Source: Neoalteromonas arenosi (lineage in GTDB: Bacteria; Pseudomonadota; Gammaproteobacteria; Enterobacterales; Alteromonadaceae). From it: a stretch of DNA of 64,000 bases. Both the position numbers and the translations under genes were made by a program. Under the pieces are notes generated by a model. That model ran no database searches. It was not told the origin of the DNA and was given only the letters and a program-made list of their open reading frames with translations. Each line of letters opens with the position of its first letter. Position 1 is the first letter of the stretch. The DNA is taken from assembly GCF_030362855.1 (NCBI RefSeq), contig NZ_JAUCBP010000013.1, positions 62,001-126,000 of the forward strand, given 5' to 3'. Shown piece after piece: positions 40,486 to 45,294 of the stretch.

Positions 40486-42072
40486 ATGACCCTTGTCGCA
40501 GAGTTAAATCCCTCTAAAAATTCAATCGCCAATCAGACTACATCAAATTGCTACACCAGCTTGCCCCCCGCGCAATTAATCGAACAAGCATTACTGCGCG
40601 GTGAAGGCGTTTTGGCTGACAATGGCGCATTGGTTGTCAAAACGGGAAGTCGAACTGGCCGTTCACCCGCTGACCGCTTTATTGTTGATGAACCTTCAAG
40701 TAGCAGCGAGATAGACTGGGGTAAGGTTAACCGTCCTTTTGATGCTGAAAAGTTTGACCAGCTATGGACCCGTGTCGAAGATTTCATCAATGCACGCGAT
40801 CGATTTAATTCGATGATGCAGGTCGGAGCTTGCGAAGAGCACGGTATTCCAGTCAGTGTAACGACTGAAACCGCATGGCAGCATTTATTCGCACACAACA
40901 TGTTTATCCAATCTACTGCAGCATTAGATAACGGCCGTCCAACTTGGCAGATTTTGAATTGCCCAGGTTTTGAATGTGTACCCGAGCGTGATGGCACCAA
41001 TAGTGATGGCGTTGTCATTATTAACTTTGCTCAGCGCAAAGTGTTGATTGCCGGCATGCGTTATGCGGGTGAGATGAAAAAAGCGATGTTTTCGGTACAG
41101 AATTTCTTATTGCCAGCGTCTAAGGTTTTGCCGATGCACTGCAGTGCAAACGTCGGTGAAGAAGGTGATGTAACTCTATTCTTTGGTTTATCTGGCACGG
41201 GCAAAACGACGTTGTCGGCCGATCCTAAGCGATTCTTAATCGGTGATGATGAACACGGTTGGGGAGTGGGTCGTGTATTTAATTTCGAGGGCGGTTGTTA
41301 TGCTAAGTGCATCGATCTCTCTCAGAAGAACGAGCCGGTTATTTGGGATGCGATTAAATACGGCGCTATTTTGGAGAATGTTGTGCTCGACGAACAGCGC
41401 CGTGCTGATTACGCTGATACTAGCCTTACCCAAAACTCTCGTGCAGCGTACCCTTTACAACACATAGACAAGCGTATTGAAGAGAATCGCGCTGGCGAGC
41501 CGCGCGCTATTGTGTTTTTAACTTGCGATGTCAGTGGTGTATTACCGCCAGTATCGATGCTAGACGAACAGGCTGCTGCTTATCACTTCTTAAGCGGCTA
41601 TACAGCGAAGGTAGGTTCGACAGAGATTGGCTCTACTGCGGAGATCGAATCGACTTTTAGTACCTGTTTCGGCGCACCATTCTTCCCTCGACCCGCACGT
41701 GTTTATGCTGATTTGCTGATTGAGCGGATCAAGACTTTTGGCACCAAGGTATTTCTAGTCAATACAGGATGGACTGGCGGACCTTATGGTATTGGTCAGC
41801 GTTTTGATATCCCGACAACGCGAGCAATCATTGATGCAATCGTAAATGATCAATTAGACATTGCTGATACCCGTTTGATTCCAGGGTTAAACCTGCGCGT
41901 GCCGAACGCCATTGATGGGGTTAACGCGCAATTGCTGAATCCTCGTGACACTTGGGCCGACCAAGAAGCCTATGATATTTATCTTGGCAAGCTGGTAGCA
42001 GAGTTCCAAGCTAACTTTGAACAATATGACGTAGATGCAGCTATTACGGCGGCAGGTCCACAAACACTATAA
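40486..42072 (+). CDS. pckA: Phosphoenolpyruvate carboxykinase (ATP)
   Basis: Key gluconeogenic enzyme: oxaloacetate plus ATP gives phosphoenolpyruvate, CO2 and ADP. The 528-aa length is normal. The kinase loop [16 protein letters not shown] (about residues 228-243), the metal region LIGDDEHGW and the substrate segments [10 protein letters not shown] and [14 protein letters not shown] identify the ATP-dependent family. It is monocistronic, between a 515-bp leader region and a strong terminator. Confidence 0.97.
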
Positions 42073-42100
42073 TTTAATACGCGAAATGTAACGTCTAACA

Positions 42101-42129
42101 AACGGTAGCCTTTAGCTGCCGTTTTTTTT
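42101..42129 (+). terminator. Rho-independent terminator of pckA
   Basis: AACGGTAGC (42101-42109) pairs with GCTGCCGTT (42115-42123) with one T-G pair and a CTTTA loop, followed by a run of eight T ending at 42129. It begins 29 bases after the pckA stop. Confidence 0.9.
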
Positions 42130-42201
42130 GCGTGAAATTTATTAGAGTAACCAACGGTATTATTAAGAGTCTACTGTACTGATAATTACCGGAGCTTATG
42201 C

Positions 42202-42462
42202 ATGCCACCACGCATACCTTGCCAAATACACGATTATTTTGAAGCGGCTTGTGTGCGCAATTACACCCTTGATGTTGAAATTTACTCGGCACAGCGGATC
42301 ACGGCAAAAGCCGTCGATATTCGTTATGACAAAGACAAAAATGAATACCTTGTGCTCGCAACTTTGGGTCGACAGAAATTCATTAAATTGACCGATATTC
42401 GTTCAGTAAGCGTTTTGGATAGCGACGCTGATTTTTCAGAAATCCCAATAAATGATTTATAA
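42202..42462 (+). CDS. rof: Rho-binding antiterminator (Rof-like)
   Basis: An 86-aa protein similar in layout to E. coli Rof (YaeO), which binds Rho and blocks its entry onto RNA. The pattern is IPCQIHDYFEAACVRNYTL, a strand pair with AKAVDIRYDKDKNEYLVL, and IKLTDIRSVSVLD, matching the Sm-like fold of Rof. GGAG stands seven bases before the ATG. The AT-rich operator region of the next module begins directly after its stop. Confidence 0.8.
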   Translation: MPPRIPCQIHDYFEAACVRNYTLDVEIYSAQRITAKAVDIRYDKDKNEYLVLATLGRQKFIKLTDIRSVSVLDSDADFSEIPINDL

Positions 42463-42523
42463 TTTGAGCATATTTATGCGCATTGTGTTATTTTTAGTGT
42501 ATATTTGAGCAAAAAAATGCGCA
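42463..42523 (+). promoter_or_regulatory. Two 20-bp repeated palindromic operators ahead of the HipA/HipB-like pair
   Basis: TTTGAGCA-N5-ATGCGCA occurs twice, at 42463-42482 and 42504-42523, exactly 41 bases apart (about four helical turns). Each copy is itself an imperfect palindrome (TGAGCA with TGCGCA; 5 of 6 positions pair). They flank a short AT-rich segment. This is the arrangement expected for autoregulation by the HTH protein encoded at 43769. A possible -35/-10 pair overlaps the first copy. Confidence 0.7.
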
Positions 42524-42530
42524 AGATTTG

Positions 42531-43772
42531 ATGTACAAAATTTTTTCTTTTGTAGCGGATGACTGGCAATTCACGGCTGAATTACAGTCGCTGATCACTA
42601 CAAATTGGTCTTCTCAAGGAAATGTGAACACTCAAATTCAAGAGTTAGTGTTGGCTTACAATGATGAGTTTGTGATAGCCAATTGGGGTGTTGAAAAGTC
42701 GGTTTCACTTTCTTCTACAATGCCGCTACAGCTTATGGAAGTATTTCGACATACTTCAATATCGAGTTGGTTAGAACAATATAAGCCGCTGCGACCACAA
42801 CAGATAAGTCCACAATATACGTTTGGCAATATTGCGATTGCACTCTCTTCTGAACATGAGCTGAGAGTCGCAAGTAATGAACCAGTGACGCCGATGGAAC
42901 TGTCGCATGTCACTGAAGAACAATTTACCGTTGCTGGTACCCGTCTGACCGGGTGGTACGCAGGTTATCAGTTTCTATTTGCCAAGTTGACTAATAATAG
43001 TTTATATCCGCTTGATTTTACTGCTCAAAAGCCAAATGAAAGCTGGGTCTTCATGCCCTTTTACAGTTGTGTAGAATTGCAACATTTGAGTACAAGTCGA
43101 AAACAGCTTAATAGCTATTTGCATGCACAATCACTATTTTTCATGCATCTAAATCGTTGTGCTGGTGGTGTGGAACAAAAAGGTACAAAGCAGCTCAACA
43201 TACACAACGGTCTCCTTACGCGTTTCGATATCCACAACAATTCGCTATGTAAAGTTAACCATTTATCTTTAGTCTTAGGTTGTGATTGTCGAGAGTCTAG
43301 TGATTTTCTTGAGTTTATTAAAATGTGTGTAAGTGCCAACAAACATTTAGAAGCCCTTGATCTCGCTGCGAGTGAACTCATCTTACTACTGCTGGTGCGC
43401 GATTTAATTTGTCGTCTGTTTACTGATGCGTCGCATCGGTGTTGTTTTAATTTGGTATATGGTGACGACTGGGCGCTATTCGCACCCATCGTTTGGGACC
43501 AAAACTCGCCCGCTGAAGCACACCCAGTGCTGCAGTGGCCAATTCAATTTATGCTTAACGATAGACCTGACTATGCTGCCATATGTGCTGCACTTTCCGA
43601 CTATGCTGAGCCTCATGAATTATTATTCAACTTAACTGAAAGTGCTGAAAACTTGATGAAAATTAATTCGCTTCTGCTTGAGGATGATCCTGAAGCAGGC
43701 GCAATTGTGGGCCAAATGTACGGCTTGCCAAACGTTGCCCAAAAGCTCCATCATTTGGAACTCATCCTATGA
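42531..43772 (+). CDS. Divergent HipA-like protein with disrupted catalytic loop
   Basis: A 413-aa protein I read as a distant HipA kinase relative. The segment GLLTRFDI followed by KVNHLSLVLG (about residues 227-250) matches the HipA pattern of a strand ending RFDR before an H...D/SLALG helix. LFTDASHRCCFNLVYGDDWALFAPIVWDQ (split across about 296-324) lines up with NxDxHxKNFSLL ... LAPxYD: the two Asp are 24 residues apart, against 23 in E. coli HipA (D309, D332). The Asn-x-Asp and Lys-Asn parts of the loop are missing and no clear ATP-binding Lys is seen, so kinase activity is doubtful. TTG at 42528 is an alternative start. The stop overlaps the HTH gene by four bases. Confidence 0.55.
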   Translation: MYKIFSFVADDWQFTAELQSLITTNWSSQGNVNTQIQELVLAYNDEFVIANWGVEKSVSLSSTMPLQLMEVFRHTSISSWLEQYKPLRPQQISPQYTFGNIAIALSSEHELRVASNEPVTPMELSHVTEEQFTVAGTRLTGWYAGYQFLFAKLTNNSLYPLDFTAQKPNESWVFMPFYSCVELQHLSTSRKQLNSYLHAQSLFFMHLNRCAGGVEQKGTKQLNIHNGLLTRFDIHNNSLCKVNHLSLVLGCDCRESSDFLEFIKMCVSANKHLEALDLAASELILLLLVRDLICRLFTDASHRCCFNLVYGDDWALFAPIVWDQNSPAEAHPVLQWPIQFMLNDRPDYAAICAALSDYAEPHELLFNLTESAENLMKINSLLLEDDPEAGAIVGQMYGLPNVAQKLHHLELIL

Positions 43773-44080
43773 AAAGTATCTTGCAATCAGCAACCGAAAG
43801 AGAAAAGCTGTTACTTGAAGGCTACCGTAATTTTATGCTTGGCAAGCTAACCCGAGGGCAATTATTAAGGCAACTACGCAAGTCAGTACTAGGTATGAAT
43901 CAAACTGCTTTTGCCCAATTAGCAGGAGTGAGTAGGCGCTCACTTACACAGATTGAAAATGACGCTTGCGATTTCTCAGAGGAAACCCTAAATCGGGTGT
44001 TCAAAATTTTTGGGTTGCGAGTCGGCTTACAATTACGTTCTGAGTATCAGGTGCGTAAACTACTTGAGCGGCAGAATTAG
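43769..44080 (+). CDS. HipB-like XRE family HTH regulator
   Basis: A 103-aa DNA-binding protein. The helix-turn-helix is LLRQLRKSVLGMNQTAFAQL followed by AGVSRRSLTQIEND (about residues 35-68), and the C-terminal FKIFGLRVGLQL resembles the HipB dimerisation strand. The four-base ATGA overlap with the HipA-like gene shows coupling. Likely binds the two repeats at 42463-42523. In usual hipBA the HTH gene comes first; here it is second. Its last four bases overlap the convergent HD-GYP gene. Confidence 0.85.
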   Translation: MKSILQSATEREKLLLEGYRNFMLGKLTRGQLLRQLRKSVLGMNQTAFAQLAGVSRRSLTQIENDACDFSEETLNRVFKIFGLRVGLQLRSEYQVRKLLERQN

Positions 44081-45294
44081 ATCGCGATTTTTTCTTCAAA
44101 GAACGTATTGAAATCAATTTTATAATCACTGGCAAGTACAGCTTTTTCTACTGTCACTTTTGTACCCCTGGACAAATCTACGTCTTCCGGGGCCATGTAG
44201 TGTTTACCTTTAGTGTTATAAAAAACTTTAACTACCGGTTTAAGAGGGGCGTCTTCATTGTGCTTGACCACCATGGCAATGGTTTCGTCACTCAGTTTGA
44301 CCAGACTACCAACGGGGTAAATACCAATACACTTAATGAACTTCTGAACTAAATCCCGATCGTATTTGTCGGGCGTATCTTTGAGAAGTATTTGTAGCGC
44401 TTTCTGACTCGGCATTCCCGCTTTGTAAACGCGATCAGCTGTTAGTGCATCGTAGACATCGACAATAGATATCATTCGACCGAAAAAGCTGACCTCATCA
44501 TCGCGTTTCCCTTCTGGGTAACCGTAACCATCAAGTCGCTCGTGGTGCTCGCCGACGGTGCGGATCATACGTTCGGGAATTTGCATTTCCTCAAGTGCTT
44601 CAATGCCATACACGACGTGATCACGCATAATATTCATTTCTTGGTCGGTCAAGCGTCCGGGCTTGTGCAATATTTTGTCTGGGATTTTTATTTTGCCAAT
44701 GTCGTGAAGGAAACCTGAAAGCGCCAATTCTTGAACAATTTCTTCTTCTAACCCGATATATTGCGCAAAGTTAGCTAAAAGGATTGCTACATTGAGTGAG
44801 TGTTCGAGAAGATAGTCGTCCTTCTCCCTGATTTTGGTTAAGCACAAGAGGGCGTTCGGGTTGCGATCTATCGAGCCCACCAAATTACGTGAAAATTCCT
44901 CGGGAACTGAAATATCGGTGGGTAAGCCTTTGGCGACGCTGTTCAGCAATTGCTTTTGAATGGACTTGCCTTTTTTGTGAAGCTTATTGGCAACGGCTAT
45001 TTCTTGATCGAATTTGAGCTTTTGCTTCTTTTTCTCAGGTTCAGGCTCGGGCGCTGGCGCAGATTCAACAGGAGCTTCTTCTTCAACTTCTTCAGGAGCT
45101 GGTTCAAATTGCTTTGAGGGATCGATAATCACCGCGAGTACGCCGCGACGTCGCAATTGGCCAACGATAGCTCGACTGGTCACTTTACCGCGACTGGCGA
45201 CCTGTAAGTTGCCTTTTTGCTCAGCAATACTATCAACATACATGCCTGGCTTGAGGTCATCTATGGATATTTTAGTTAACGAATCTGACGACAT
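44077..45294 (-). CDS. HD-GYP domain cyclic-di-GMP phosphodiesterase
   Basis: A 405-aa protein with an N-terminal DUF3391 domain (SIDDLKPGMYVDSI start), a Pro/Glu/Lys linker (about residues 64-95) and a C-terminal HD-GYP domain. Metal motif FLHDIGKIKIPD and the HHERLDGYGYP motif are intact, so it should hydrolyse cyclic di-GMP. No membrane helix or receiver domain. I chose the ATG at 45294; a TTG at 45351 would add 19 residues, and neither has a clear ribosome site. Confidence 0.9.
   Translation of the reverse strand: MSSDSLTKISIDDLKPGMYVDSIAEQKGNLQVASRGKVTSRAIVGQLRRRGVLAVIIDPSKQFEPAPEEVEEEAPVESAPAPEPEPEKKKQKLKFDQEIAVANKLHKKGKSIQKQLLNSVAKGLPTDISVPEEFSRNLVGSIDRNPNALLCLTKIREKDDYLLEHSLNVAILLANFAQYIGLEEEIVQELALSGFLHDIGKIKIPDKILHKPGRLTDQEMNIMRDHVVYGIEALEEMQIPERMIRTVGEHHERLDGYGYPEGKRDDEVSFFGRMISIVDVYDALTADRVYKAGMPSQKALQILLKDTPDKYDRDLVQKFIKCIGIYPVGSLVKLSDETIAMVVKHNEDAPLKPVVKVFYNTKGKHYMAPEDVDLSRGTKVTVEKAVLASDYKIDFNTFFEEKIAI

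Follow-up and report, generated by a model that had tools for sequence, protein, structure and literature searches.

The 64,000-nucleotide stretch of Neoalteromonas arenosi DNA analyzed here (referred to as the window) carries two overlapping genes that encode a HipA-like protein and a HipB-like helix-turn-helix (HTH) protein. We propose, at about even chances, that the pair is a hipAB module that has turned into an autoregulated HTH/pseudokinase pair, in which the pseudokinase would serve as a co-repressor. The proposal draws on profile homology, synteny in two species, the loss of kinase motifs, the conserved sequence and spacing of operator-like sites, and reading frames that are open in both species. 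By open reading frame, the HipA-like gene runs on the forward strand from an ATG at position 42531 to position 43772 (413 amino acids [aa]), with an alternative in-frame TTG just before it at 42528; its product is classified here as a HipA-derived, predicted pseudokinase on the basis of profile homology, lost motifs, and a syntenic counterpart. The HTH gene (43769-44080, forward strand, 103 aa) follows with a four-base overlap (a shared ATGA), and the toxin-like gene comes first, exactly as the original prediction had read the two frames. From this overlap, the genes are predicted to form a two-gene operon in which the HTH protein is the HipB-like partner. Its matches to HTH_31 and HTH_3 exceed the Pfam cut-offs, and it resembles the HipB-type model TIGR03070 (E value, 3.6e-10, under the model's cut-off); together with its relatives, these matches mark a HipB-like regulator or antitoxin-derived gene. 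The lower guanine-cytosine content that had been remarked on for the pair is real but mild (0.42, versus 0.469 for the whole window, with 1.9% of the window's 1550-bp stretches being lower).

HipA ancestry of the 413-aa protein

Profile comparison identifies the 413-aa protein, at the level of sequence, as a descendant of HipA. The window protein and its counterpart from Alteromonas oceanisediminis (described below), aligned by hhalign with 10 intact relatives, gave a probability of 95.3 and an E value of 2.1e-8 over 376 columns, and the window protein alone gave 89.9 and 1.7e-6 over residues 195-411. In an hmmsearch with a profile of 36 intact relatives, the 413-aa frame ranked first (E value, 2.2e-8; next, 0.33) among the window's 281 stop-to-stop frames of 60 aa or more. 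The match is strongest in the C-lobe and weak in the N-terminal part. Searches against general collections returned little: the protein had no match in Pfam or NCBIfam at E values up to 1 and none in PADLOC at E values up to 10, and a sequence search of PDB produced a single chance-level match (E value, 0.73). It also failed the gathering score of PF07804 (HipA_C), a cut-off passed in the same scan by all five intact relatives, and its counterpart matched only DUF4457 (E value, 0.22). The HipA/HipB ancestry first proposed from the letters alone is thus supported by the profile searches and by the intact HipA found upstream in 65 of 80 relatives of the HTH gene.

An AlphaFold2 (AF2) model built on a HipA-rich alignment (the window protein, its counterpart, and 26 of the 65 intact HipAs) had a mean predicted local distance difference test score (pLDDT) of 57.5 and a predicted template modeling score (pTM) of 0.61, with residues 341-413 scoring high (blocks of 87-95) and residues 73-190 scoring under 50. 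VIA-align of this model against 554 of Foldseek's 557 chains placed HipA-family entries in rows 1-12 (Z, 5.4-6.9; next row, 4.4), values that are modest and come from a query model built on a HipA-rich alignment. Eight of these twelve entries have titles that name HipA, HipT, or CtkA, the last of which we take to be kin to HipA; 3dnt, 7wcf, and 7vkc presumably belong to the HipA family as well. Entry 7vkb is the structure of lpg2370 (HipT), according to PMC9758233.

Kinase motifs and the syntenic counterpart

When 98 genomes were searched with the window protein, one other locus emerged (29% identity over residues 239-411; E value, 2.6e-4), which belongs to Alteromonas oceanisediminis SM 2104 (G003), a member of the same genus as the window's species. 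This locus has a 416-aa frame, with a likelier start 15 codons later (401 aa), followed by a 111-aa HTH gene, and its flanking genes are, as in the window, a rof-like gene and the HD-GYP gene. Neither gene of the pair was found by search in two other genomes of the genus (G001 and G002), in which other genes occupy the place beside the HD-GYP gene. Between the window and A. oceanisediminis, the HTH proteins share 47% identity (103 codons) and the HipA-like proteins 27% (375 codons), and the neighbors are 83% (HD-GYP), 63% (Hsp33 part), 56% (MGMT-like), and 38% (rof-like) identical. The tree of HTH proteins joins the two species with a Shimodaira-Hasegawa-like approximate likelihood ratio test (SH-aLRT) value of 82.

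Four motifs, namely, the Gly-rich loop (GGATGAGGEAPK in relatives), YLVK, N[ST]DNHGRN, and DFAPM, are all missing from both degenerate proteins in the alignment, which is uncertain around the Gly-rich loop and the ATP lysine (the lysine of YLVK). The kinase core of the 413-aa protein is, as judged from these alignments, largely gone, and the protein would be expected to have no kinase activity. In place of the catalytic loop, the window protein has FTDASHRCCFN (residues 297-307; positions 43419-43451, forward strand), as had been noted originally, which we interpret from the alignment as a remnant of N[ST]DNHGRN. The D-x-H-x-x-N pattern is not intact there: relative to His302, Asp299 is shifted by one residue, the Asn is found at +8 where +5 is expected, and the catalytic Asp falls in a deletion of the profile alignment. 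No equivalent of this pattern could be aligned in the counterpart. Where relatives carry the Mg-binding Asp (PIYDFAPM), the window has PIVWDQNSP with its Asp out of register, and the counterpart has no Asp. The spacing of the two key Asp residues, to which the original prediction had also drawn attention, holds for the window, where Asp323 (codon at 43497-43499, forward strand) lies 24 residues past Asp299 (against the 23 that the original prediction gave for E. coli HipA), but is not kept in A. oceanisediminis, which has an equivalent of neither. Among the loci examined, these two are the only full-length HipA-like proteins without kinase motifs. Homologs with an intact loop, which had been named as a sign of error or local decay, are distant relatives only (about 18-22% identical to the window protein); the syntenic counterpart shares the motif loss, which makes a sequencing error or private decay unlikely.

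HipAs recognized by PF07804 occur elsewhere in the genus, with three in A. oceanisediminis (L107, L108, and L109), one in G002 (L110), and none in either G001 or the genome of the window. The loop sequences obtained for three of these four (NHDDHAKN, NTDDHARN, and NYDAHGKN) are unlike NSDNHGRN.

Operator-like sites

Motif search located two 18-bp sites of the form TGAGC-N8-GCGCA on the forward strand between the rof-like gene and the start codon, i.e., O1 (TGAGCATATTTATGCGCA; 42465-42482) and O2 (TGAGCAAAAAAATGCGCA; 42506-42523), 41 bp apart and at -66 and -25 from the start codon. The pair is, by this sequence pattern, preceded by tandem palindromic sites of the operator type. The related form TGMGC-N8-GCKCA was seen three times in the 64-kb window, with two of the three occurrences here (0.55 expected; 2 of 100 shuffles reach three). 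A. oceanisediminis likewise has two such sites 41 bp apart, one with a mismatch and in mutually opposite orientation, at -69 and -28 from the likely start. A -10-like hexamer abuts each site of the window on the forward strand. TATAAT (42458-42463), next to O1, has TTCAGA 17 bp upstream (10/12 match); the promoter scan that found it returned 6 promoter-like sites versus 5.4 expected in the scanned stretch, which makes it weak evidence of a promoter. TATATT (42500-42505), next to O2, was recognized by reading and is absent from the promoter-scan sites.

Intact relatives carry TGAG[CT]-N8-[GA]CTCA sites, mostly 41 or 82 bp apart. With at most one mismatch, the motif occurs in 61 of 67 upstream regions (mean of 0.72 in 50 rounds of single-letter shuffles), and the site distances are 82 bp in 32 and 41 bp in 20 of the 67. 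These regions comprise 65 intact loci, the A. oceanisediminis locus (L116), and the window, with 8 fragmentary loci, 5 without hipA, and 1 at a contig end set aside. Within the 65 intact loci, a site was found in 59, and 54 have two sites spaced 41 or 82 bp apart when as many as two mismatches are allowed. Since the choice of motif followed inspection of the window and of part of the loci, these counts are not independent. A motif-free scan for pairs of 5-N8-5 palindromes is a cleaner test of the operator spacing. Upstream of 68 hipA-like genes (including the window, L116, and the unrelated hipA L128), it peaked at 41 bp, with both palindromes perfect in 10 of the 68 regions (next distance, 2) and with one mismatch allowed in 28 (next distance, 17).

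One locus with intact hipAB (L077, in G282) carries three copies of another half-site, TGTTT-N8-AAACA, upstream of hipA at -104, -63, and -22, i.e., with the same 41-bp spacing; in this sequence, the spacing is conserved while the letters change. A genome-wide single-site search with up to two mismatches returned 213 places per strand, versus 57 for a reversed control. Naming regulon targets by the single motif was abandoned, as the motif alone is too weak.

The reversed-order hipAB family

A scan of the contigs of 84,980 species with an HTH alignment yielded 178 confirmed relatives, and the following counts rest on the best 80 of these. A full-length HipA with N[ST]DNHGRN lies upstream of the HTH gene in 65 of the 80 (63 with NSDNHGRN and 2 with NTDNHGRN), and hipA overlaps the HTH frame in 63 of these 65 intact loci when longest-frame starts are used. 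The other 15 loci comprise 1 with a full-length protein that lacks the motif (A. oceanisediminis), 8 with fragmentary hipA, 5 without an upstream hipA, and 1 at a contig end. The family occurs in Acinetobacter, Vibrio, Marinomonas, Rahnella, and other Gammaproteobacteria. An HTH search over 395 genomes of the window's family had matches in 79, and many of the loci whose frames were read (those other than L099-L110) show an upstream HipA with D-x-H-x-x-N. Reversed-order hipAB is, on this sequence survey, a widespread gammaproteobacterial type, and the window represents a rare derived form of it, given that most HTH relatives keep an intact upstream HipA. The original prediction had singled out the gene order as a distinguishing feature and the pair as a candidate for an undescribed system. 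The order is real but not unusual, being shared by the 65 relatives and by published modules (see below), and "undescribed system" was too strong a term for a derived hipAB.

The 413-aa protein itself has few relatives within reach. A two-row profile (window plus counterpart) matched 21 of the 395 family genomes at E values up to 0.01, i.e., the window's own, G003, 17 with D-x-H-x-x-N in the frames read, and G263 and G287, in which the frames hit are 134 and 58 aa long. Of 394 genomes of the order, it matched five, namely, the window's own and four with NSDNHGRN. No close sequence relative was confirmed among 23 pattern matches in the first scan of genome contigs or among 36 pattern matches in viral contigs, and none was found on plasmids at E values up to 0.01.

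Some relatives have a damaged or missing toxin gene. The HTH frame is open beside a shortened hipA in L126, L131, L153, and L165 and beside a hipA in pieces in L141, L151, L160, and L174. Broken-hipA loci (in Vibrio, Salinivibrio, Motilimonas, and Rahnella) keep their upstream operator-like sites, a pattern of repeated toxin loss with the regulator kept. HTH relatives without hipA were seen in L011, L016, L018, L021, and L022 (HTH near 1430-1790) and in L012, L013, and L014 (near 1460-1845), which span several genera of the family. By eye, five of these eight follow a yicC-like gene, and all eight lie near an exported-looking protein of approximately 220-250 aa and a small NTF2-like protein. 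Such genes perhaps represent an orphan antitoxin retained as a regulator.

Selection and age of the pair

At the HD-GYP gene, 0.76 of 133 fourfold-degenerate sites differ between the window and A. oceanisediminis, i.e., synonymous sites are saturated, and both frames of the pair are nevertheless open in both species. In a neutral simulation, none of 400 frames stayed open at 0.2 or more changes per site, whereas 1.5% did so at 0.1 and 10.75% at 0.05; the simulation assumes one degenerate ancestor, with selection for translational coupling alone lying outside the model. If there was one such ancestor, neutral change would have closed the HipA-like frame. It is less likely that each species underwent decay on its own, given that the two loci agree in place, site spacing, and lost motifs.

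Proposed mechanism and comparison with known systems

Under the proposal, the pair goes back to a toxin-antitoxin module of the reversed-order hipAB type. The HTH protein would dimerize and bind O1 and O2 between the rof-like gene and the pair, and the bound dimer would repress both genes. The HipA-like protein would have lost phosphotransfer, and probably ATP binding, while its retained C-lobe may bind the HTH dimer as a non-toxic co-repressor, bridging or stabilizing dimers on sites 41 bp apart. A co-repressor role fits the loss of catalysis alongside retention of the partner and the operator sites. A broader version, in which a toxin kinase has been domesticated as a regulator subunit and the pseudokinase supplies the sensing or bridging function of an HTH repressor that acts on its own promoter and possibly on other genes, is offered only tentatively. 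Chromosomal toxin-antitoxin modules have often been proposed to become regulators. Here, an open, kinase-dead form of the toxin was seemingly retained together with the operator sites. If the protein is a non-toxic co-repressor, operator cooperativity of the HipA type could be studied without kinase activity or growth arrest, and a domesticated HipA, if real, would be a natural separation of regulatory from toxic function. The TGAG[CT]-N8-[GA]CTCA motif, shared in a 41-bp phase by most loci examined, makes regulation across the family testable.

Reversed-order hipAB subclades of HipA clades VI and VII, as well as hipEB, are described by Gerdes et al. 2021 (PMC8262856). These modules resemble the window pair in having a kinase-like gene first and an HTH gene second, a likeness of gene order. 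The relatives found here additionally share with the window pair the small overlap, protein homology, and operator layout; the 65 intact ones carry N[ST]DNHGRN, which the window protein has lost. The reversed order itself is already described, and what differs here is a kinase-dead, derived hipAB. The searchable literature (titles and the beginnings of abstracts, mostly from non-subscription sources) contained no kinase-dead HipA kept with its operators and no mention of the present motif.

Escherichia coli hipBA also combines a HipA-related protein with an HTH partner and tandem 18-bp 5-N8-5 operators; in contrast to the window pair, it has the order BA, the half-site TATCC, spacings of 28, 39, and 28 bp, and an active kinase. 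One review (PMC3920265) describes HipA as a co-repressor of hipBA. For hipBST of E. coli O127, PMC10627512 reports that HipB alone represses, that the kinase-dead HipBST(D233Q) also represses its promoter, and that leaky hipBST or hipBT represses while hipB alone needs high expression. The proposed pair would resemble this system in that HipT together with HipB strengthens repression and a kinase-dead complex still represses (PMC10627512), and the operators are evenly spaced (PMC10653801). The hipBST systems of E. coli O127 and Legionella differ in having three genes, a separate HipS antitoxin, an active kinase, and, in Legionella, 53-bp inter-operator gaps. No separate HipS gene beside a short HipT kinase is present at our locus, which has a single 413-aa protein preceded by the rof-like gene. 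In the integrative and conjugative element (ICE) R391, overlapping hipA and hipB are described as a functional toxin-antitoxin pair, and deletion of hipA raises loss of the element 12-fold, which indicates that the toxin works (PMC4489591). R391 hipAB thus has an overlap, like the window pair, but differs from it in this working toxin. A Proteus member of the family was considered as part of an R391-like ICE; this idea was dropped, the neighbors being hydrogenase-like by eye and the E. coli genomes containing no near match.

Alternative explanations

Several points weigh against a co-repressor pseudokinase. The kinase-less pair is known from two species only; the branches of the HTH tree, a quick tree with SH-aLRT values only, are long, and the HTH protein of the window is no nearer to its counterpart (47%) than to those of Microbulbifer (47%) or Cellvibrio (48%). 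In each site of the window, one arm pair is mismatched, which keeps the window out of the motif-free count. AF2 run on just the two degenerate sequences yielded an uninformative model (pLDDT, 33), and Foldseek gave 43 matches, none at E values up to 0.001 and no HipA among them. The window keeps 35 of 127 invariant residues, a number inside the spread seen for 20 re-aligned shuffles (24-41), and the A. oceanisediminis counterpart keeps 47 of 127. Letter shuffles on a fixed alignment had not reached the window (40 of 141, versus a maximum of 15), but since re-aligned shuffles do, the count was dropped as evidence of homology, and HipA ancestry rests on profiles, gene order, and operator sites. 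Retained operator sites, moreover, would be equally expected if only the HTH gene and the operators were under selection and the HipA-like gene were a decaying leftover, kept open through translational coupling to the HTH gene. We consider this unlikely. It agrees with the toxin loss seen in relatives that keep the HTH gene (fragmentary hipA in 8 of 80 and none upstream in 5 of 80), with the operator-like site retained in 10 of these 13 loci, with the several HTH relatives in the family that stand alone, and with the loss of most family-invariant residues. It has difficulty with frames of 413 and 401-416 aa that retain 27% identity and a similar C-lobe after synonymous saturation, and with the neutral simulation, which leaves 0 of 400 frames open; the fragmentary relatives illustrate what real decay looks like.

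Of the readings originally offered, a pseudokinase or HipA-derived regulator fits best, and a kinase with a changed active site has been weakened, because neither D-x-H-x-x-N nor an equivalent of Asp323 is present in the counterpart, and the Gly-rich loop and ATP lysine are missing from both proteins in the alignment. A kinase that is still active through a rearranged site, in which Asp299 would be catalytic and Asp323 metal binding, would account for the 24-residue distance between them and for the likeness of PIVWD to PIYD; we regard it as very improbable, given the register of Asp299 relative to His302, the displaced Asn, the catalytic Asp deleted in the profile alignment, and a counterpart without either Asp. 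Somewhat more credible, but still improbable, is a HipA-like protein that remains a toxin without phosphotransfer (e.g., by target binding), with the HTH protein as its antitoxin. The overlapping two-gene operon, HTH partner, and operator-like sites are those of a type II module, and the protein has diverged fast (27%, against 83%, 63%, and 56% for HD-GYP, the Hsp33 part, and the MGMT-like protein, the rof-like protein also being at 38%); however, the toxicity of Legionella HipT requires kinase activity, according to PMC10653801. The least probable account, in our assessment, is that the HTH regulator has an unrelated partner and the HipA ancestry is spurious. The lack of any Pfam match at E values up to 1 and of any Foldseek match at E values up to 0.001 and a residue retention no higher than that of re-aligned shuffles would be in keeping with it, but it is at odds with the hhalign match over nearly the full length (2.1e-8), with the hmmsearch match (2.2e-8), with a gene order, overlap, size, and site layout that match intact hipAB, and with the HipA-family entries in the first 12 VIA-align rows, albeit on a HipA-rich model.

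Neighboring genes and other observations

The upstream neighbor of the pair is a rof-like gene of the Rho-binding antiterminator family (42202-42462, forward strand; PF07073, E value of 8e-20). Such a gene also directly precedes the pair in A. oceanisediminis (PF07073 at G003:C2:60265-60492); in the congeners, it lies on another contig in G001, and G002 has no PF07073 match. Because PF07073 is present in 20 of the 59 genomes searched and O1 and O2 separate rof from the pair, the rof-like gene was not adopted as a third component, and its membership in the unit is uncertain. Downstream, a convergent gene of the HD-GYP type (by eye) overlaps the stop end of the HTH gene with its own stop end. 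A terminator-like hairpin with a T-rich tail (43421-43441) falls inside the HipA-like gene, within the catalytic-loop remnant, and 5 terminator-like sites were found in 42060-44150, versus a mean of 1.8 in shuffles.

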